64,000 nucleotides of DNA from NCBI RefSeq assembly GCF_014696715.1, contig NZ_JACJQO010000022.1, positions 124,001 to 188,000 on the forward strand. Direction: 5' to 3'. The position numbers and the translations under genes are program-made. Origin of the DNA: Pseudanabaena sp. FACHB-2040. GTDB lineage: Bacteria > Cyanobacteriota > Cyanobacteriia > Phormidesmidales > Phormidesmidaceae. Shown piece by piece: positions 36,985 to 46,059 of the stretch; positions within the stretch are counted from its first letter, which is position 1; every line of letters begins with the position of its first letter. Under the pieces are notes generated by a model. The model made no database searches. It was not told the origin of the DNA and saw nothing but the letters and a program-made list of their open reading frames with translations.

Positions 36985-38217
36985 ATGATAGAAAATCAGT
37001 CTCTTTTAAAGGTGAAGCCCGCTTTTTTGTTTCTGCTGCTGGTCGCATTTACCTACACGGTTCTCTTTTTTGCGATGGACCAGCTGCGCGGTCCGTTTTG
37101 GATTGATGAGGCGTGGTTTTGGGAAACGAGCCAACAGTTTAGCCAAAGCCTGATCCCAACGCTGGATCAGCTGCGCAACTACAACGAGCTGAATACGCCG
37201 CTGCCGTTTATCCTCTACGGCATGCTGGAGTATTTGTTTGATGATGGCCTGTTTGCGGGCAGGCTTCTAAACTTTTTGCTGTCGATAGCAATTGTGTTTT
37301 TGATTGGCTGGCCAGGGCAAGGCAAGCGCTTTAAGCCAATTCTCGCTGTGCTGGGCCTATTTTTATTTCCCTATTTTTTGTGGCTAAGCGCCAGATTTTA
37401 TACAGACCTGATTGCCTCTATCTTCGCGCTGCTGGGCGTTGTGTTTTACCTGCGCAAGCAGCCCATCGTTAGCGGGCTGGTTTTTATTCTGGCGATCGCA
37501 TCTCGGCAATACATGGTGGCGTTTCCGGTTGCGATCGCAGCCCATGAGCTAGTCATTGCCATTCGTTATCGGCAGCGGCCTAGCCTCAGCTTTTTTCTGC
37601 CCTTTTTTGCGGCGCTGTCGCTGCTGGGGTGGTTTGTGCTATTTGGCGGGCTGGCCCCGCAAAATGCACTGGCTTCGCGGCCGGCTCCAGATGTGCAGTA
37701 TTCGTTCTGGGCCTTGTTGCCAAGCAGCAGCATATTTTTTCTATCCAGCATTGGGCTATCTTTTGTGATTCCAGAGTTTCTGCTGCTTTACCGCAGGCTC
37801 GACTGGAGCGCTGTTTTTTCTAAAAAGTCGCTGCTGATTGCAGGCGGGCTGCTGCTGCTGTTTATCATCTTTCCGCCGCCCGAATCAGCTAAGGGATTGG
37901 TGTGGCGGGTGGCCGAGGCTCCAGATGGAGTGCTGTTCATTCCCCGCCTGACAATTCAGCGGGGCGTGTATTATGGGCTGGCGCTCTTGACCTGCCTGCG
38001 GTTCTCTAATTTAGGCTTGGGGGGGTGGATGGTGCTTTTCAACGCCCTGATCATGCTCAAAGCTTTTCCTTGGGACCGCTATTCGCTGCCGCTGATCATT
38101 GTCCTGTGGTATTTACAGTCAAAGAACCAGCTAGATCATCCTCTCGCAAGATCTCCAGTGCCTGCCCCTGAGAGGGTAGAGGAAGCGCCCCCTCCAGCCA
38201 AGACTGGAATCGCGTGA
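36985..38217 (+). CDS. GT-C (GT39/ArnT-like) membrane glycosyltransferase, copy 1
   Basis: A 410-residue protein with about ten hydrophobic segments. Seen: after the first span GPFWIDEAWFWETSQQFSQ, an acidic Asp-Glu in the first periplasmic loop, the place where GT-C enzymes keep their catalytic acid; YNELNTPLPFILYG, GRLLNFLLSIAIVFLIGW and ASRQYMVAFPVAIAAHEL in later loops and spans. This is the outline of dolichyl/undecaprenyl-phosphate-sugar dependent transferases that act on the outer face of the inner membrane. The first about 225 residues are almost identical to the next gene, while the C-terminal half differs clearly. It has a 28-bp gap to the preceding GT4 gene. Activity and acceptor are inferred. 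Confidence 0.8.
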   Translation: MIENQSLLKVKPAFLFLLLVAFTYTVLFFAMDQLRGPFWIDEAWFWETSQQFSQSLIPTLDQLRNYNELNTPLPFILYGMLEYLFDDGLFAGRLLNFLLSIAIVFLIGWPGQGKRFKPILAVLGLFLFPYFLWLSARFYTDLIASIFALLGVVFYLRKQPIVSGLVFILAIASRQYMVAFPVAIAAHELVIAIRYRQRPSLSFFLPFFAALSLLGWFVLFGGLAPQNALASRPAPDVQYSFWALLPSSSIFFLSSIGLSFVIPEFLLLYRRLDWSAVFSKKSLLIAGGLLLLFIIFPPPESAKGLVWRVAEAPDGVLFIPRLTIQRGVYYGLALLTCLRFSNLGLGGWMVLFNALIMLKAFPWDRYSLPLIIVLWYLQSKNQLDHPLARSPVPAPERVEEAPPPAKTGIA

Positions 38218-38369: not shown

Positions 38370-39587
38370 ATGATAGAAAATCAGCCTCTCTTAAAGGTCA
38401 AGCCCGCCTTTTTATTTCTGCTGCTGATTGCATTTACCTACACGGTTCTCTTTTTCGCGATGGACCAGCTGCGCGGTCCGTTTTGGATCGATGAGGCGTG
38501 GTTTTGGGAAACGAGCCAGCAGTTTAGCCAAAGCCTGATCCCAACGCTGGATCAGCTGCGCAACTACAACGAGCTGAATACGCCGCTGCCGTTTATCCTC
38601 TACGGCATGCTGGAGTATTTGTTTGACGATGGCCTGTTTGCGGGCAGGCTCCTAAATTTTTTGCTGTCGATAGCAATTGTGTTTTTAATTGGCTGGCCGG
38701 GGCAAGGCAAGCACTTTAAGCCGATTCTCGCCGTGCTAGGCCTATTTTTATTTCCCTATTTTTTGTGGCTAAGCGCCAGATTTTATACAGACCTGATTGC
38801 CTCTATCTTCGCGCTGCTGGGCGTTGTGTTTTATCTACGCAAGCAGCCCATCGTTAGCGGGCTGGTTTTTATTCTGGCGATCGCATCTCGGCAGTATATG
38901 GTGGCGTTTCCGGTTGCGATCGCAGCCCATGAGCTGGTCATCGCCATTCGTCATCGGCAGCGGCCTAGCCTCAGCTTTTTTCTGCCCTTTTTTGCGGCGC
39001 TGTCGTTGCTGGGGTGGTTTGTACTGTTTGGCGGGCTGACCCCGCAAAATGCACTGGCGGCGCGGCCTGCCCCAGAGGTGCAGCAGTCACTTTGGGCCTT
39101 GTTGCCGAACAGCGGCCTATTTTTTCTATCCGGCCTCGGGCTGGCTTTTGTGATTCCAGAGTTTTTGCTGTTTTACCGCAGGCTGGATTGGAAAGCGGTG
39201 TTTAGCAAGAAGTCGCTGCTGATCGCGGTCGGGCTGCTAGTGCTGTTTATTGTCTTTCCGCCACCTGACTTTGCGCGCGGGCTAGCGTGGCGGGTAGGGG
39301 GGCTAATGCCGCTGCTGCCCCTGCGACAGGCGTTGTTTTATGGTCTGGCGGTTTTGACGTGCTTACGGTTTGCCAATCTCAGCCTGGCCTCGTGGATGGT
39401 GCTTTTCAACGCTTTGATTATGATGAAGGCGTTTCCCTGGGATCGCTATGCACTGCCGCTGCTGATTGTCCTGTGGTATCTGCAGGCGAGGAACCAGATG
39501 GACCATCCGCTGGCGGGGATGCGATCGCACCCCTCCGATCGCGCAGCAGCAGGGGCCGAAGATACCGAAGCGATTGAGATGGCCTGA
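38370..39587 (+). CDS. GT-C (GT39/ArnT-like) membrane glycosyltransferase, copy 2
   Basis: A 405-residue paralogue of the preceding gene. The first about 225 residues differ at only about five positions (for example Ser6 to Pro and Tyr to His near residue 196), and even the 25 bases before the ATG are similar, so this is a recent tandem duplication. After about residue 225 the proteins diverge: PEVQQSLWALLPNSG against PDVQYSFWALLPSSS, and a rewritten loop after FPPPDFARGLAWRV. The tail after NQMDHPLAG is unrelated. The conserved first-loop Asp-Glu (WIDEAWFW) is kept, so both copies could be active but with different acceptor specificity. Last gene of the plus-strand locus. Confidence 0.8.
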   Translation: MIENQPLLKVKPAFLFLLLIAFTYTVLFFAMDQLRGPFWIDEAWFWETSQQFSQSLIPTLDQLRNYNELNTPLPFILYGMLEYLFDDGLFAGRLLNFLLSIAIVFLIGWPGQGKHFKPILAVLGLFLFPYFLWLSARFYTDLIASIFALLGVVFYLRKQPIVSGLVFILAIASRQYMVAFPVAIAAHELVIAIRHRQRPSLSFFLPFFAALSLLGWFVLFGGLTPQNALAARPAPEVQQSLWALLPNSGLFFLSGLGLAFVIPEFLLFYRRLDWKAVFSKKSLLIAVGLLVLFIVFPPPDFARGLAWRVGGLMPLLPLRQALFYGLAVLTCLRFANLSLASWMVLFNALIMMKAFPWDRYALPLLIVLWYLQARNQMDHPLAGMRSHPSDRAAAGAEDTEAIEMA

Positions 39588-39707: not shown

Positions 39708-39733
39708 AAAAAAACCGGAGTAGAATGCTCCGG
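39708..39733 (-). terminator. Rho-independent terminator of exosortase cassette A
   Basis: Read on the minus strand, CCGGAG and CTCCGG form a 6-bp stem with a 7-base loop followed by seven T. It stands about 105 bp after the stop of the PTPA-CTERM gene at 39839. Confidence 0.85.
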
Positions 39734-39838
39734 CTGATGGATATGGCTCTCTAGGTCTTTTGAAACCAGGATGGGCTTCAAGCAGCTAGAGGATTAGGAG
39801 GGTTCGATCGATCTTCTCCTCGCAACGGGTCTGGTGAA

Positions 39839-40441
39839 TTAGTCTTCGGCAGACTCTTCAGAGTCATCCCGGCGCTTCCGCAGGGCGGTTAGGCCCATAC
39901 CGATGAGGCCGGGCAGCAGGGCTGGGGTCGGCACTGCGGTAACGCTGCCTTCGAGGGGGAACAGGAAGGCTGCACTACCCCGGAAGGGGAAGGGAGCGGG
40001 AGTCTCTACACCTTCAAAGCTATCGAGATTTCCGCCGCCGACTAGGCTAATGGTGTCACCAAACCGAGCGCTTCCCAAGTTAGAAGCAAACTCTAGCTTC
40101 AGGAGGCTCTGAAGCGAAGGGGTGCTTTCACTGGTAGAAAACCAGGCTTTAACGCCGTTAGAGGCTAAGCCAGGAACTAGACCATCGTAATCGCGATCCA
40201 AAAGATCAGAGGTGATCTTGATGTTGGAGTATCCATTGACATCATCGTAATCAAATGAGCCTGTGAGCTTACCTACAGAGGTGGTTGGGCTCAGGGAAGA
40301 TTCGAAGATGTTGGCATTGATCTTAAAGGTCAGGGCCGAAGCGGGGTCTGCTCCCATCAGCACCATGCTGGCGGCGGTACCCGCCATGGTGACGGACAGT
40401 GCAAGATTTTTGAAAGATTGAGTTGTAGACATCATTGCCAT
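39839..40441 (-). CDS. PTPA-CTERM sorting-signal protein, cassette A (exosortase substrate)
   Basis: A 200-residue predicted secreted protein. Seen: an N-terminal signal peptide with a hydrophobic core and a cleavage site near ASA-LTF (about residue 37); a Ser/Gly-rich, low-Cys mature part with short beta-like stretches; and a C-terminal VPTPALLPGLIGMG, hydrophobic residues and LRKRR, which is the tripartite PEP-CTERM layout with PTPA as the recognition motif. An acidic tail (DDSEESAED) follows the basic cluster. Exosortases cut such tails and may attach the protein to a membrane or glycan. The function of the mature part is unknown. It is preceded by a conserved leader and by an exosortase gene, and followed by a terminator. 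Start choice among Met 1, 3 and 4 is uncertain. Confidence 0.88.
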   Translation of the reverse strand: MAMMSTTQSFKNLALSVTMAGTAASMVLMGADPASALTFKINANIFESSLSPTTSVGKLTGSFDYDDVNGYSNIKITSDLLDRDYDGLVPGLASNGVKAWFSTSESTPSLQSLLKLEFASNLGSARFGDTISLVGGGNLDSFEGVETPAPFPFRGSAAFLFPLEGSVTAVPTPALLPGLIGMGLTALRKRRDDSEESAED

Positions 40442-40556
40442 TACCTTTGTTTAGATTGCAGGTATGTCTTGGTAGATTCCCTGTTCAGGTAGATGACTGG
40501 GTAGATGTCCTATGGCTGATTCCTATAGTCGCCGATACAATGCCTCGGGCGCGGGC
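40442..40556 (-). promoter_or_regulatory. Conserved leader of PTPA gene A with GGTAGAT iterons
   Basis: This stretch matches the leader of the second PTPA gene (43305-43420) along about 115 bp, far more than the flanks. It includes GATACAATGCCTCGG, GCGGGCAG and GGCTGATTC. GGTAGAT (plus-strand reading) occurs at 40471-40477, 40488-40494 and 40500-40506. Direct repeats of this kind are typical of regulator-binding sites; which regulator binds is unknown. Confidence 0.65.
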
Positions 40557-40562
40557 AGAACG

Positions 40563-41477
40563 CTAGATCTGTTTTGTGGGTCGGCGTTTGATTAGCGTCA
40601 TCACGGTGTAGTGAAAAACAGTCAACAAAATACTAGAAAAGATTTGGCCGCCCCAGGTTCCATGCCAGAAGTTAAATGATTCTTTGCCCCAATAGACGGC
40701 AGCAATGGCTAACAGCATGATCCGAGGAACGTTGAAGATGAGGGCCAGCACGATACCCATGGCCATGATAGCTAATGTGGTGTGCCAGCGCTGTTGATAA
40801 AACAGGCCCATAATCAGTCCGGCGGCGGCCATGGTAAAGGCCATGTTGAAGCCGTTGCAGCCCCACCCCACTTCTACGGCTCCGTTAGGCGGCAAAAAGA
40901 CAAGGATGCCCTTCGCAACGGCGGGTCTGCCAACGGCGCTTAAGGCGGCAGCTCCGGCCTGGGCCATGATTTGCTCTAGAAATAGGGGGGGTGTGAGGGC
41001 TTCCCAGAGGATGCGGGCAAACAGGCCAGGTTTGGGATAGGCAGTGATGACAAACAGCAGGGTCGGTAGGGGGTAGCAGGTAAAGAACTGAATGCCCCAA
41101 GAGCTGACGGTGATGCCTGCCAAAATCAATAGCCACAGGATGGCCTGGGGCCAGACGGCAAAGCGACAGAGGGGAAAGGCTGCAACGCTGCAGAGGATCA
41201 ACAGGTGACCGATGACCTGATCTGGCTCGGAGGCTTCGAGCTGGGCGATTTTTTGTCGGTTGGTCCAGATCTGTTTGAGGCCTAGGGCTAGGGCGGCTCC
41301 AATTAGGGGCAACCCAGCGGAGCCGTGTTGCAGTCGACCGACGAGGGCGGGCAGCCAGGTCTGTAGATAGACCAGACCCATACATAGCCCCATCAATACA
41401 AACCGACCATGCCAGTCTCTAACTGCAGCTTTGAGATAAGACAGGCCCCACTGTCTAAACAGCAAGGTCTGCTTCAT
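40563..41477 (-). CDS. Cyanoexosortase, cassette A
   Basis: A 304-residue membrane protein with about eight hydrophobic segments. Exosortases are membrane cysteine transpeptidase-like enzymes that process PEP-CTERM-type tails. Seen: VEVGWGCNGFNMAFTMAAAG with the catalytic Cys at about residue 204, FNVPRIMLLAIAAVYW with the conserved Arg at about 245, and FWHGTWGGQIFSS with the His at about 265. ILWEALTPP before the core and a basic C-terminus (KRRPTKQI) complete the outline. The start codon overlaps the stop of the HpsJ-like gene by one base (TAATG), so the two are coupled. The substrate is most likely the PTPA-CTERM protein encoded 121 bp downstream. Subtype (cyanoexosortase C) is suggested from its HpsJ partner, from memory. 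Confidence 0.92.
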   Translation of the reverse strand: MKQTLLFRQWGLSYLKAAVRDWHGRFVLMGLCMGLVYLQTWLPALVGRLQHGSAGLPLIGAALALGLKQIWTNRQKIAQLEASEPDQVIGHLLILCSVAAFPLCRFAVWPQAILWLLILAGITVSSWGIQFFTCYPLPTLLFVITAYPKPGLFARILWEALTPPLFLEQIMAQAGAAALSAVGRPAVAKGILVFLPPNGAVEVGWGCNGFNMAFTMAAAGLIMGLFYQQRWHTTLAIMAMGIVLALIFNVPRIMLLAIAAVYWGKESFNFWHGTWGGQIFSSILLTVFHYTVMTLIKRRPTKQI

Positions 41478-42088
41478 TACCGCCTCTTGCGGGAGCCGCT
41501 GCTAGAGGAGAGGGCTGTGCGCCCGAGGCTGATGAGCCCAATGCCAACGACGACCAGGTTGCTGGTGCTGGCAATTCCGGTGCGGGTAATGGTGGTTTTG
41601 GCGTTTTGCTTGAGGGCTTCTGCCTGGGAGGTGATTTGCTGGGTGGCCTGCTCTAGCTGCTCGGGAGAGGGTGGGGCGGCCAGGTCTGGGTTGGTCTGGC
41701 TCTGCTCTACTTGGGTCTGCAGCTGGGCGGCCTGTTGGCCGATGTTGGTGAGGGCTTGGGCCTGGAGGGTAAGGCTGTCGCGGATGACGACGATGGAGGT
41801 GAGCAGAAATAATACGCCGATGCTGAGGGCGGCATAGGAGAGGAGTTTGCGAATTTGGGGAATGTCCCAAATGCTGTAGGCGAATAGGGCCATGCCAAAC
41901 AGCAGGATGATGCTGCGATCGCTCATCTGCTGCAGGAGGCCAGCTCGCCAGGCGGCTCCTGCACTCGGCGGTAGGGCCAGCACGGCCATATCGATGAAGA
42001 AGCCGATGAGGCAGGCTAGCCCGACGATGCGGCAGAGTATTGGCCCGCTGAAGGAGCTAGGGGAGGCTTGATTTGGAAAGCTAACCAT
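41477..42088 (-). CDS. HpsJ-like exosortase-associated membrane protein, cassette A
   Basis: ATG at 42088 is preferred over an in-frame ATG at 42196 because the second copy in this window starts at the same point (203 residues). Seen: an N-terminal membrane span in CRIVGLACLIGFFIDMAVLAL, the conserved SAGAAWRAGLLQQMSDRSIILLFGMAL, a third span ending SYAALSIGVLFLL, a Gln-rich coiled-coil-like stretch (about residues 105-165) and a last span in NLVVVGIGLISLG before a basic end. This is the layout of HpsJ-type proteins known from hormogonium polysaccharide genes and found next to cyanoexosortases. Its biochemical role is not known. It is coupled to the exosortase by a TAATG overlap. Confidence 0.85.
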   Translation of the reverse strand: MVSFPNQASPSSFSGPILCRIVGLACLIGFFIDMAVLALPPSAGAAWRAGLLQQMSDRSIILLFGMALFAYSIWDIPQIRKLLSYAALSIGVLFLLTSIVVIRDSLTLQAQALTNIGQQAAQLQTQVEQSQTNPDLAAPPSPEQLEQATQQITSQAEALKQNAKTTITRTGIASTSNLVVVGIGLISLGRTALSSSSGSRKRR

Positions 42089-42576
42089 AAGGACAACCTG
42101 TTGCAGAGGGTTGGGTGTGAATGGTTGAGTGCAGGTATAGAACAACCGGTAGGGCACCTCTGCGAAACCGGGCGATTTATCTTTTGCTTGAGCCAATGCT
42201 TTGGGAGCAAGTGATAAAGGGCCGGTGGCTTGAAATGTCTGCTTTGCAAAGCAGGGTTCAAACTGAAGGCATCTTAAGTAAAGGTTTTGCTTTCCACCAA
42301 TAGTCTTTAAGGGGTTTTACACAAGCTTTACTGTTTTGGGGATCTGTTTGGTTTTATTTGAGGTAAGCGTTTTTTGGGGAACTTGGTGACTCTATAGGGG
42401 TCGTAGGGTGAAGGCGTACTTGATAGTTTTGGCTGGGCCTAGCGATTGATCGCGGGCATGGGAACTCGGTTTGTTGTGGTGTCTTCTAGTTGAATAGGTT
42501 TGCCCCTGGCTAGGTGAGGTGAGGTGGGGCTAATGTTTGAATTTGAAAGAAAAAAACTGAACGGGGAAATTTGGGC
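42089..42576. other. Intergenic region upstream of cassette A
   Basis: About 490 bp without a supported gene, between the HpsJ start of cassette A and the terminator of cassette B. It should contain the cassette A promoter. A sequence like TGTAAAACCCCTTA on the minus strand (about 42307-42321) has a counterpart upstream of the other HpsJ gene (about 45014-45030). Confidence 0.45.
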
Positions 42577-42608
42577 AAAAAAAAAGGCCGGAGTGAAACA
42601 CTCCGGCC
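42577..42608 (-). terminator. Rho-independent terminator of exosortase cassette B
   Basis: On the minus strand GGCCGGAGTG and CACTCCGGCC form a perfect 10-bp stem with a 3-base loop, followed by nine T. It shares the CCGGAG/CTCCGG core with the terminator of cassette A and lies about 100 bp after the stop of the PTPA-CTERM gene at 42708. Confidence 0.93.
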
Positions 42609-42707
42609 AGATCTTTGAAGAAGTTGTTTAACGCTCTAAGCCTTGTTGGCATTAGAGGGTTATGAGGTTAGGCAATTGTGAGGCTCTGTTGCAGAAGATT
42701 GCTTGGA

Positions 42708-43304
42708 CTAGGCTTCTGCAGAGTCTTCGGAACCCTCCTTACGCTTGCGCAGCGCTGCAACGCCCATGCCGATGAGGCCGGGGAGCAGGGCTGGGGTGGG
42801 AACGGCTGTGAAATCCCCGGTAAAGGTGTTGTTAAGGGAAGTGAATGCAACTTGTCCTACACCCTGGGTACCATTGCCAAAGAAACCCTTAAAGTTGAAC
42901 CGCATGTCTGCGTCGAAGATCGCAGAAGTGGCGAAGAAGTCAAAGTCATCACCGTTAACATCCACAAGTTTAAAGGGGGAAAATGCACTGATGCTGCTAA
43001 CGTCTGTGACATTAGCAAATTGAATGTTAACCCGTCTAGGGTTGTTAGGGTCTGGTGCTGGTGCCAGTGAAGTAAAGCCAAGGTTGGCAAAAGTAATGAA
43101 AGCCGTCTCGTCAAAACCAGGCAAACCAGGAATAGGAGAAGTGAAGTTAATTGAGTTTGGGGTAAAAACTCCTTGTCCAGAGATTGAGTACGTGCTGCCG
43201 ATTTGAACAGCTTCTGCAGGGGCAGATATCGCTAGAAAAGCGGTAGCGACCACGCTTACCGCAGCAAAGTTTTTGAGCGATTGAGTTACAGACATCGTTG
43301 CCAT
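42708..43304 (-). CDS. PTPA-CTERM sorting-signal protein, cassette B (exosortase substrate)
   Basis: A 198-residue predicted secreted protein. Seen: an N-terminal signal peptide (MSVTQSLKN, hydrophobic core, cleavage near AEA-VQI at about residue 33), a mature part rich in Phe, Asn, Thr and Gly with no Cys, and the C-terminal signal VPTPALLPGLIGMG, hydrophobic residues, LRKRK and an acidic tail EGSEDSAEA. The N-terminal TQSxKN and the whole C-terminal signal match the cassette A protein, but the mature parts between are not alignable by eye, so these are two different substrates sharing one export and sorting package. It should be processed by one of the window's exosortases; the nearest one upstream is truncated. 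Confidence 0.88.
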   Translation of the reverse strand: MATMSVTQSLKNFAAVSVVATAFLAISAPAEAVQIGSTYSISGQGVFTPNSINFTSPIPGLPGFDETAFITFANLGFTSLAPAPDPNNPRRVNIQFANVTDVSSISAFSPFKLVDVNGDDFDFFATSAIFDADMRFNFKGFFGNGTQGVGQVAFTSLNNTFTGDFTAVPTPALLPGLIGMGVAALRKRKEGSEDSAEA

Positions 43305-43420
43305 TACCTTTTTTTGAAATTAGTGGGTATAAATTGGTAGATACCCTAAGTAGGTAGATGACTAGTAAATGTCACAGGCTGATTCTAGGTTCACCGATAC
43401 AATGCCTCGGACGCGGGCAG
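43305..43420 (-). promoter_or_regulatory. Conserved leader of PTPA gene B with GGTAGAT iterons
   Basis: It aligns with the cassette A leader along about 115 bp. GGTAGAT (plus-strand reading) stands at 43336-43342 and 43353-43359, with a degenerate AGTAAAT at 43364-43370, at the same 17 and about 12 base spacings as in copy A. CACCGATACAATGCCTCGG marks the outer end. A regulator site or a shared promoter is inferred. Confidence 0.65.
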
Positions 43421-43512
43421 CTCACAGGTCCCTAGTATTATTAGAAAGAGTTTTTAATCAGACGATGCCATTGTTTTTTGGGTTTCTGATATCTATGCTA
43501 GGTATAAGTTTT

Positions 43513-43594
43513 GTAGGATGGGCAAAGCAAAGCGTGCCCATCACAGTACGGCTCTAAACGATGGGCACGGGCTATCGCCCTTTGCCCATCCTAC
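43513..43594. repeat. MITE-like palindromic repeat, copy 1
   Basis: An 82-bp element opening GTAGGATGGGCAAAG and closing with the inverted CTTTGCCCATCCTAC. The same opening recurs at 59756 and 61012 with different inner sequence. It lies between the truncated exosortase and the PTPA gene leader. Confidence 0.85.
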
Positions 43595-43632
43595 TAGCTA
43601 CGTATAAGTGCAGCTCTTTACAATTGCTGCCT

Positions 43633-44037
43633 CTACCTTGCTGGTTGGCGATTGATTAAGGCCATCACAGCATAGTAGAAGACGGTAAACAATACGCTGG
43701 AAAAGAGCTGTCCACCCCAGTGGCCATGCCAGAACTTAAATGAGGCTTCGCCCCAATAGACTGACGCAATGGTGAGCAGCATAATTCTAGGAACGTTGAA
43801 GATGAGGGCTAGAACGGTGCCAACCGCCATAATCGACAGGGTGTTGTACCAGCGCTGCTTGTAGAAAAGGCCCATAATTAGTCCGGCAGCGGCCATGGTA
43901 AAGGCCATGTTGAAGCCGTTGCAACCCCAGTCAACATTTACGGCTCCGGCTGGGGGCAGGGCGACGATGCTGCCTTCTGCGATCGCAGGTTGCCCAATTA
44001 CTCTTAAAGCGGCGGCTCCTGCGTGGGCCATGATCAC
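43633..44037 (-). pseudogene. N-terminally truncated cyanoexosortase, cassette B
   Basis: The frame codes for 134 residues that match only the C-terminal half of the cassette A exosortase. Seen: VNVDWGCNGFNMAFTMAAAG with the catalytic Cys, FNVPRIMLLTIASVYW with the Arg, and FWHGHWGGQLFSS with the His, so all three key residues are intact and no frameshift occurs. About 170 N-terminal residues, including roughly five membrane spans, are missing. Similarity reaches upstream of the GTG at 44037 (codons FLEV line up with FLEQ in copy A) and stops at the TAA of the HpsJ gene at 44059-44061, so a deletion removed the 5' part cleanly after HpsJ. It may be a dead gene or a half-size protein working with another copy. 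Confidence 0.85.
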
Positions 44038-44058
44038 TTCAAGAAATTCACAAGGGCT

Positions 44059-44676
44059 TTATCTCCTCTGACGGGGTCTACCTGCGGTGCCGCTAGAAGT
44101 CATGGAGGCTCGGCCCAAGCTAATGAGACCAATGCCAACAACGACGAAGTTGCTAGTACTGGCGATGCTGGCTCGGGTAATGGTGGTTTTAGCGTTTTGC
44201 TTGAGGGTTTCTGCCTGAGCGTTGATTTGTTGAGTAGCCTGCTCAAACTGCTCATTGGTGACTGAGGCTGCGTCCGGGTTGGTGCGGCTCTCTTCAACTT
44301 GAGTCTGTAACTCGGCTGCTTGTTGGCCGATGTTTTCAAGGGTTTGACTTTGAAGCATGAGACTGTCGCGGATGACCAAAATGCAGAATAGCAGGAACAA
44401 AACGCCAATACTGAGGGCAGCGTAGGAGAGGATCTTGCGGATTTGGGAGATCTCCCAAACACTGTAGGCGATTAGGGCAATGCCAAAGAGCAGGATGATG
44501 CTGCGATCGCCCATCTGCTGCAAAATGCCTACGCGCCAGGCAGCGCCAGCACTAGGAGGGAGGGCCAGCACGGTCATATCGACGAGGAAGCCGACAATAC
44601 AAGCTAAGCCGACGATGCGGCAAAGTACTTGACTGCCAAACGAACTGGAAGAAATTTGATTTGAAATGCTAACCAT
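44059..44676 (-). CDS. HpsJ-like exosortase-associated membrane protein, cassette B
   Basis: A 205-residue paralogue of the cassette A HpsJ-like protein, with the start set at 44676 because the alignable region begins there (MVSISNQISSSSFGSQ). Seen: CRIVGLACIVGFLVDMTVLAL, SAGAAWRVGILQQMGDRSI, a span ending SYAALSIGVLFLLFCIL, a coiled-coil-like QQAAELQTQVEESRTNPDA stretch, and a last span NFVVVGIGLISLGRA before a basic end. Well over half of the residues are the same in the two copies. The gene is intact although the exosortase gene after it has lost its 5' part, which suggests that HpsJ is still in use or that the deletion is recent. Confidence 0.85.
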   Translation of the reverse strand: MVSISNQISSSSFGSQVLCRIVGLACIVGFLVDMTVLALPPSAGAAWRVGILQQMGDRSIILLFGIALIAYSVWEISQIRKILSYAALSIGVLFLLFCILVIRDSLMLQSQTLENIGQQAAELQTQVEESRTNPDAASVTNEQFEQATQQINAQAETLKQNAKTTITRASIASTSNFVVVGIGLISLGRASMTSSGTAGRPRQRR

Positions 44677-45144
44677 ATCAACAACTTGACCCAAAGGATT
44701 TAGACGCGAATAAGTGAATGAAGAGCAAGTACTCAAGGCAGTGGCTGAGATTTGAGTACCACCATGAGCTAAGTTAGTTTGAGGGGCCGCCCCAAACCAA
44801 AATTAAGCAGATAATACGGTGGCAACTGCCTCAAGCAGCAAAATTAAGAAGTAGAAGGATTGGCGGCTCTACGTTGGCACGGGTTGTGGAACGAGTAGCT
44901 AGGTAGGGCACCACTGCTGCACCAAATCACCCTTTTTTCTGAGGATTTAGCTAATTCAGCAGCACTGAAACTGAAATAATCATAGAAGGCTAATTGGCAA
45001 TGCTGCAAGAAGTTCTAAGGGATTTTTACAGCAGTTCTATTGATTAGAGAGATCCTGTAGGTTGAAGCGAAACAGCATGCCAAGGAATTGTAGGCAAGCA
45101 GACTAGCCGAGCGAGGCCAAGTTAAGAACGTATCGACAAAACGG
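44677..45144. other. Intergenic region between exosortase copy 3 and cassette B
   Basis: About 470 bp without a supported gene. It presumably carries the promoter of cassette B. A TGTAAAAATCCCTTA-like sequence (minus strand, about 45014-45030) resembles one upstream of the cassette A HpsJ gene. Confidence 0.45.
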
Positions 45145-46059
45145 CTAGGCTAACTTTCGGGAACGGTGTTTGATAATAGCCATCACAGCGTAGTAATAAA
45201 CAGTGAACAACGCTCCAGAGAAAATTTGCCCTCCCCAAGTCCCATGCCAGAAGTTGAAGGAAGCTTCTCCCCAATGAATCGATGCAACTGTTAATAGCAT
45301 GATTCGAGGAATGTTAAAAATCAATGCCATAACTGCACCAACAATGGTCATGATAAAAACAGTAGGGCCACGCTGCTTAAGTAAAATGCCAAGGAAAAAA
45401 CCAGTTGCAGCCATGGTGCAGGCCATACTAAAGCCATTGCAGCCCCAGTCTACATGAACAGAACCTTCAGGTGGCAAAACTACGAGACTACCTTCTGAGA
45501 TTGCGGGCAGGCCAATTAGCCTAAGTCCGAATGCTCCACTCCAAGCCATAAACCGATTTAAGTAGTCATGGGGAGTCAGCGTTTCCCAAAGGACTCGAGC
45601 AAGGATACCAGGTTTGGGATAAACCGTAACAGCAATGAGCAAGCTAGGGAGGGGAAAATGCTTAAAAAAGACAATCCCCCACGTACTAATAACGATACCG
45701 CTGAGAGCGCAGAACCATAGTATGCTTTGCGCCCACACGGCGAAGCTGCAGAAAGGAAACAGAACAACACTGCATAGGATCAGCAGATGGCCTAAAAATT
45801 CATCCGATTCAGATACTTGCAGTTGAACTATTGCCTGACGACTTTTCCAAAGTTGCCAAAGACCCATGGCTACACAGCCTAAAATTAGAGGCATGGCACC
45901 TGAACCTTGAAGAGTTCGGGTACCTAAGTGGAAAAGCCAAATTGGAAAATAGATTAACCCTACGGTGAGTCCAGCTAAGACAAATCGGCCATGCCAGGAT
46001 TTAAAGGAGTTTCTCAAATAGGCCGGGCTCTGTTTCACGTTTCCTAAAAAAGTATTCAT
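45145..46059 (-). CDS. Cyanoexosortase, third copy (stand-alone)
   Basis: A 304-residue full-length paralogue of the cassette A exosortase, with about eight membrane segments. Seen: VHVDWGCNGFSMACTMAATG with the catalytic Cys, FNIPRIMLLTVASIHW with the Arg and FWHGTWGGQIFSGA with the His, plus TVYPKPGILARVLWETLTP before the core. The catalytic part shares DWGCNGF and LLT-AS with the truncated copy, while the truncated copy is otherwise nearer to cassette A. No HpsJ or PTPA gene is attached; the next gene downstream on this strand is the cassette B HpsJ gene, 468 bp away, so it could serve as the exosortase of that cassette. It sits beside the second polysaccharide locus. Confidence 0.9.
   Translation of the reverse strand: MNTFLGNVKQSPAYLRNSFKSWHGRFVLAGLTVGLIYFPIWLFHLGTRTLQGSGAMPLILGCVAMGLWQLWKSRQAIVQLQVSESDEFLGHLLILCSVVLFPFCSFAVWAQSILWFCALSGIVISTWGIVFFKHFPLPSLLIAVTVYPKPGILARVLWETLTPHDYLNRFMAWSGAFGLRLIGLPAISEGSLVVLPPEGSVHVDWGCNGFSMACTMAATGFFLGILLKQRGPTVFIMTIVGAVMALIFNIPRIMLLTVASIHWGEASFNFWHGTWGGQIFSGALFTVYYYAVMAIIKHRSRKLA

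Follow-up and report, generated by a model that had tools for sequence, protein, structure and literature searches.

Here we describe a sorting island for cyanoexosortase C (CrtC) within a 64,000-nucleotide stretch of the genome of Pseudanabaena sp. FACHB-2040 (NZ_JACJQO010000022.1, positions 124,001-188,000). This whole stretch is referred to below as the window, and coordinates are window positions unless they carry a locus or contig label. The island occupies the minus strand of a surface-polysaccharide region and is flanked on both sides by groups of glycosyltransferase genes. Read 5' to 3', it consists of CrtC copy 3, HpsJ 1, half of a CrtC gene, PTPA-CTERM 1, a terminator, HpsJ 2, CrtC copy 2, PTPA-CTERM 2, and a second terminator (Table 1). 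An earlier sequence-only reading of this DNA had described two minus-strand sets of HpsJ-like, exosortase, and PTPA-CTERM genes in the same order, each closed by a terminator with a common CCGGAG...CTCCGG core, as well as an additional full-length exosortase, and had taken the PTPA and HpsJ families to be known ones. The order of the genes and both terminators were confirmed, and the genes match the NCBIfam models for cyanoexosortase C (NF033464), HpsJ-like C (NF050019), and PTPA-CTERM (NF033465), with scores above the curated cut-offs (225, 140, and 29 bits, respectively) for every part of the island but the half CrtC. The two PTPA-CTERM substrates scored 51.3 and 54.8 bits, and both display the PTPA motif, a hydrophobic stretch, and a basic end. 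Because NCBIfam names every part, the trio is an already recognised set, and the island is an ordinary, already named sorting system with an unusual local arrangement. The claim that each exosortase has its own HpsJ failed for CrtC copy 3, which contains the GCNGF, NIPRIM, and FWHGTWGG motifs and has no HpsJ directly upstream.

Table 1. Features of the CrtC island, listed in the 5' to 3' order of the minus strand
Feature	Position	Strand	Match or basis
CrtC copy 3, full-length, 304 aa	45145-46059	-	NF033464, E 3.6e-110, 367.9 bits
HpsJ-like, cyanoexosortase C-associated, copy 1	44059-44736, likely start 44676	-	NF050019, E 1.1e-69, 233.8 bits
Half CrtC (C-terminal, 134 aa)	43633-44037	-	NF033464 positions 151-278 only, 209.2 bits
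Substrate leader copy 1 (upstream region and first codons; two ATCTACC)	43264-43420	-	79% over 160 nt to 40401-40558
PTPA-CTERM substrate 1, 198 aa (signal peptide, body, sorting tail)	42708-43304	-	NF033465, E 7.7e-15
Sorting-tail coding segment, substrate 1	42709-42809	-	78% over 101 nt to 39840-39940
Terminator-like hairpin, set 1	42586-42608	-	GGCCGGAGTGTTTCACTCCGGCC then nine T
HpsJ-like, cyanoexosortase C-associated, copy 2	41477-42196, likely start 42088	-	NF050019, E 1.3e-70, 236.9 bits
CrtC copy 2, full-length, 304 aa	40563-41477	-	NF033464, E 5.9e-113, 377 bits
Substrate leader copy 2 (three ATCTACC)	40401-40558	-	Alignment to leader copy 1
PTPA-CTERM substrate 2, 200 aa	39839-40441	-	NF033465, E 9.4e-14
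Sorting-tail coding segment, substrate 2	39840-39940	-	Alignment to substrate 1 tail segment
Terminator-like hairpin, set 2	39713-39735	-	AGCCGGAGCATTCTACTCCGGTT then T-rich tail

The duplication of the set is genuine. DNA identity between set 1 and set 2 is 77% for HpsJ, 76% for the common part of CrtC, 79% for the leader (160 nt), and 78% for the tail (101 nt). The two substrates are alike at these two ends only, as had been proposed, and their bodies are unrelated (z -0.9). At the protein level the HpsJ copies are 75% identical, and they form sister branches in two trees, with values of 91 and 94 in the Shimodaira-Hasegawa-like approximate likelihood ratio test (SH-aLRT). CrtC copy 3 is more diverged. 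The sequence-only reading had presented the set as a duplicating unit, and this stands for the local duplication but not as a general mode, since no other CrtC-bearing genome has clustered CrtC: among the 390 genomes of the class that were searched, 83 carry CrtC, and this genome alone has two or more copies within 10 kb.

The exosortase of set 1 had been read as a complete enzyme, but its 134 residues match only model positions 151-278 of 278, so that the genome holds two full-length CrtC and one half rather than three. Approximately 160-170 residues are missing, and alignment of the two sets shows a gap that begins at the HpsJ stop and extends to approximately CrtC codon 160. HpsJ 1 and the half CrtC are in the same frame, separated by a single TAA, and the frame of the half opens directly after it. 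Four hydrophobic segments are found in the half, compared to nine in the full-length copies, while the Cys, Arg, and His motifs (GCNGF, N[VI]PRIM, FWHG) are present in all three copies, including the half. Synonymous divergence (dS) between the exosortase halves was mostly saturated, and a fold search with the confident AlphaFold2 model of CrtC copy 2 (predicted local distance difference test score 92.8) returned no usable match among solved structures. Two other candidates for a half CrtC, in genomes G347 and G130, were rejected, as these matches are cut by contig ends and are not internal halves.

Beyond the island, gene counts speak to how many substrates each enzyme might serve. The sequence-only reading had proposed units of one enzyme and one substrate, and had itself regarded the presence of many PTPA-CTERM genes elsewhere in the genome as counting against them; two were found away from the cassettes, the first 7 kb outside the window and the second on a different contig, among a genome total of four. 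A dedicated pair would have a single target in the genome, and here there are four targets and two full-length CrtC. Across the 390 genomes, CrtC and PTPA-CTERM occur together in 81, CrtC alone in 2, PTPA-CTERM alone in 13, and neither in 294 (Fisher p 6e-67, a value that overstates independence because the genomes are related). CrtC, the putative protease of PTPA-CTERM tails, is linked to them here by this co-occurrence in 81 of 390 genomes. Of the 68 genomes that combine a single CrtC with one or more PTPA-CTERM proteins, 60 carry 2-10 of them, and the median PTPA-CTERM number is 4 in single-CrtC genomes versus 3 where CrtC numbers at least two. The tails of three of the PTPA-CTERM proteins of this genome are nearly identical (VPTPALLPGLIGMG..ALRKR), and for this reason no cassette-specific sorting code is visible.

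The expectation that HpsJ and CrtC would track each other in trees was confirmed. Their tree distances correlate with a rho of 0.58 over 56 pairs, a value as high being reached in 0 of 2000 permutations (species kinship is not removed from this figure), and the pairing of HpsJ with CrtC holds because their trees match. In 36 of 40 loci from outside the order, HpsJ lies directly upstream of CrtC; this adjacency was counted from locus maps, as automatic counts were inflated by a CrtC profile that included a fusion frame and also matched a neighbouring glycosyltransferase. The pairing is not strictly one-to-one, because genomes of the genus g7 hold a second, stand-alone HpsJ of the window type, separated by approximately 4-5 kb from a CrtC that belongs to another type. 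The place of the PTPA gene also varies by clade, being mostly upstream of HpsJ-CrtC outside the order and downstream in g7.

The substrate bodies were then compared at eight g7 loci that keep the order CrtC, substrate slot, DUF4347 beta-helix surface protein, and HpsJ. CrtC at these loci is orthologous and 77-92% identical at the protein level, yet in 24 of the 28 pairwise comparisons the bodies show no relationship, the related bodies being those of G032, G037, and G047 among themselves and of G033 with G041; the bodies of G030 and G033 (z 4.2) may be remotely related. DNA similarity between slots restarts close to the PTPA codons, to within a few bases, and continues downstream; since every PTPA protein has a conserved tail, the point of restart does not by itself define the border. 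Among body-unrelated pairs, tail similarity correlates with similarity of the downstream flank (rho 0.66, permutation p 0.003). DNA identity between G033 and G041 is 89% in the body, 69% in the tail, and 50% downstream. The comparison of the G041 slot took in two PTPA-CTERM genes, the second of which is nearer to CrtC. One gene of this tandem (L132:11537-12079, minus strand) has no in-frame start and is probably decaying beside an intact one, and the tandem makes gain in tandem followed by tail-to-tail deletion a possible route of replacement.

These observations suggest that the substrate slot beside CrtC may be a cargo-exchange site, at which recombination through the sorting-tail DNA, and in the window also through the leader, replaces the body. 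We advance this mechanism tentatively, as plausible but carrying somewhat less weight for it than against. Several points weigh against it. The tail is under strong selection at the protein level, so that its similarity is partly constraint; a clean drop at the border of body and tail is seen only in G033/G041, the pair whose G041 copy has no in-frame start; and replacement is not universal, as close pairs in other clades retain orthologous bodies in some cases (CrtC 89%, bodies 84-86%) and not in others. Exchange of the passenger at the substrate slot is nonetheless the best remaining novelty of the locus, and the alignments for it are suggestive. If exchange does occur, enzyme, partner, and tail would stay in place while related strains show different surface proteins through one sorting machine. 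It would also reveal at which site and by what route exosortase substrates become diverse, a question that has stood since PEP-CTERM proteins were found to share their tails only, and would open tail sufficiency to direct examination by tail swaps.

Given the gene content and alignments described above, the island is probably a many-to-one CrtC system in which the unit was duplicated in tandem, one enzyme copy decayed, and passenger domains turned over. From what is known of the families, PTPA-CTERM proteins would be exported by means of a signal peptide, and the C-terminal tail, with its PTPA motif, hydrophobic helix, and basic end, would hold them in the membrane. CrtC, together with the neighbouring HpsJ-like C protein, would then cut at the tail and pass the protein to the cell surface or slime layer. 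The present layout probably arose when a single HpsJ-CrtC-PTPA unit was duplicated locally, alongside a more diverged third CrtC, after which the CrtC of one duplicate would have lost its N-terminal half. The four PTPA-CTERM substrates would form a shared pool for the two full-length CrtCs. Substrate bodies would be exchanged between the conserved leader and the conserved sorting tail, and because only these ends are kept, the enzyme presumably recognises the tail rather than the body or the cassette.

The competing view that each CrtC with its HpsJ sorts just the adjoining PTPA-CTERM protein draws on the physical layout within the window, the agreement of the HpsJ and CrtC trees, and the precedent of rhombosortase, for which dedicated enzyme-target neighbours are known, including one genome with two enzymes that each lie beside a target (PMC3237569). 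This view is highly improbable given the two PTPA genes that lie in trans and lack a dedicated enzyme, the single CrtC facing 2-10 substrates in 60 of 68 genomes, the near-identical tails, the different bodies next to orthologous CrtC, and the truncation of the set 1 exosortase. The claimed novelty of one-to-one modules is thus not supported, although the two full-length CrtCs might favour different substrates, which would count against a fully shared pool. A related possibility retains the many-to-one chemistry and holds that the two cassettes have been kept for separate expression, each with its own control region and terminator for use under different conditions. Consistent with this, each set has a separate leader and terminator, and ATCTACC direct repeats precede both window substrates. 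The same 7-mer is enriched upstream of PTPA-CTERM genes in relatives (16 regions versus 1.5 expected, partly via orthology). As a genome-wide site, the direct repeat ATCTACC-N10-ATCTACC was rejected, since exact matches were found only at the two cassettes. Against it, the leaders are 79% alike, which favours shared rather than different control, and the SigJ J-box of hormogonium genes (GGGNATNCT) was not found before the PTPA genes. We therefore regard separate expression as doubtful, though it has more in its favour than dedicated pairing. A de novo search for 20-nt motifs gave noisy and unstable motifs and was dropped.

Two further alternatives concern the CrtC copies themselves. The half CrtC could be a working short exosortase, perhaps produced by read-through or restart past the HpsJ stop, given that its frame is intact and in phase with HpsJ one TAA away, that the regions of its Cys, Arg, and His motifs are retained, and that exosortase families of 150-190 residues exist. 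However, when compared with the short families XrtX, XrtR, and XrtG, the half aligned only from position 40 of 168, 71 of 160, and 88 of 187, respectively, with scores below the cut-offs. The half is shorter even than these families, because the alignments start only inside their models. The missing part accounts for approximately half of the helices in the CrtC model, and an internal half CrtC was found in no other genome, which together make a functional short enzyme quite improbable. The half is probably a decayed, inactive copy that has lost its N-terminal half, in which case this genome offers a natural example of a decayed exosortase alongside intact copies. It is also unlikely, though less so, that the three CrtC copies were acquired separately and are not local duplicates. 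Their nearest relatives differ: the half is closest to strain J069 (80% amino acid identity, versus 73% to copy 2), copy 2 to a different member of the family, and copy 3 groups with G026. The affinity of the half to J069 weighs against local duplication, which the trees of CrtC do not prove. Set against this are the sister relationship of the HpsJ copies, the leader and tail DNA common to both sets, the identical gene order, and an approximately unbiased (AU) test in which the sisterhood of copy 2 and the half was not rejected (p 0.43).

The locus can be placed among known sorting systems, and doing so sets an odd-looking array within a known system and corrects the reading of one enzyme per substrate. 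It resembles the named CrtC/HpsJ-like C/PTPA-CTERM system in that all parts match and HpsJ adjoins CrtC, as is usual, and departs from it in packing three CrtC into 6.4 kb, of which one is a half without its N-terminal part. Like the PEP-CTERM/EpsH system (Haft 2006, PMC1569441), it combines a signal peptide, a variable body, and a short C-terminal sorting tail, with many substrates per enzyme, a link to exopolysaccharide genes, and frequent gain and loss of substrates. Haft et al. had noted that PEP-CTERM substrates are often gained and lost and that the tail is a module (PMC1569441). The present system differs in its PTPA motif in place of PEP and in replacement at one orthologous slot, with similarity resuming from the sorting tail. 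Cyanoexosortase B of Nostoc punctiforme (PMC12188702) is likewise a cyanobacterial exosortase linked to surface polysaccharide and motility, but belongs to a different subfamily from CrtC. Dedicated enzyme-target pairs have already been described for sorting enzymes (PMC3237569). The rhombosortase/GlyGly-CTERM system is similar in that target genes adjoin the sorting enzyme, even with two enzymes each having a target, whereas its enzyme is unrelated and the substrates of the present system also occur in trans. Among the papers searched, none names PTPA-CTERM, or HpsJ together with an exosortase, and none describes passenger replacement at the level of the slot.

Several additional features were noted near CrtC and PTPA-CTERM genes. 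Another exosortase of this genome, which is not a CrtC, sits apart at C22:235003. In genome G022, a 1253-residue frame (L118:9121-12879, minus strand) fuses CrtC with a WcaI-like glycosyltransferase, an EAL domain (cyclic di-GMP phosphodiesterase), and a response-regulator receiver domain. A protein of approximately 440 residues is encoded just upstream of PTPA-HpsJ-CrtC or HpsJ-CrtC at L177, L182, L183, L190, L193, L195, and L196, and is a WcaI-like glycosyltransferase where examined (L177). Around the third PTPA-CTERM gene, a protein resembling PEP-CTERM substrates, with a C-terminal PEP motif, a hydrophobic stretch, and an RRRK end, is encoded approximately 1.3 kb away (L012:9215-9946, minus strand). 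Finally, two look-alike multi-pass membrane proteins are encoded in tandem on the plus strand of the window (36985-38217 and 38370-39587), with 95% DNA identity across their first 300 nt, and a third is found at L012:5653-6822 (plus strand); at both places in the genome, these genes are oriented towards a PTPA-CTERM gene.

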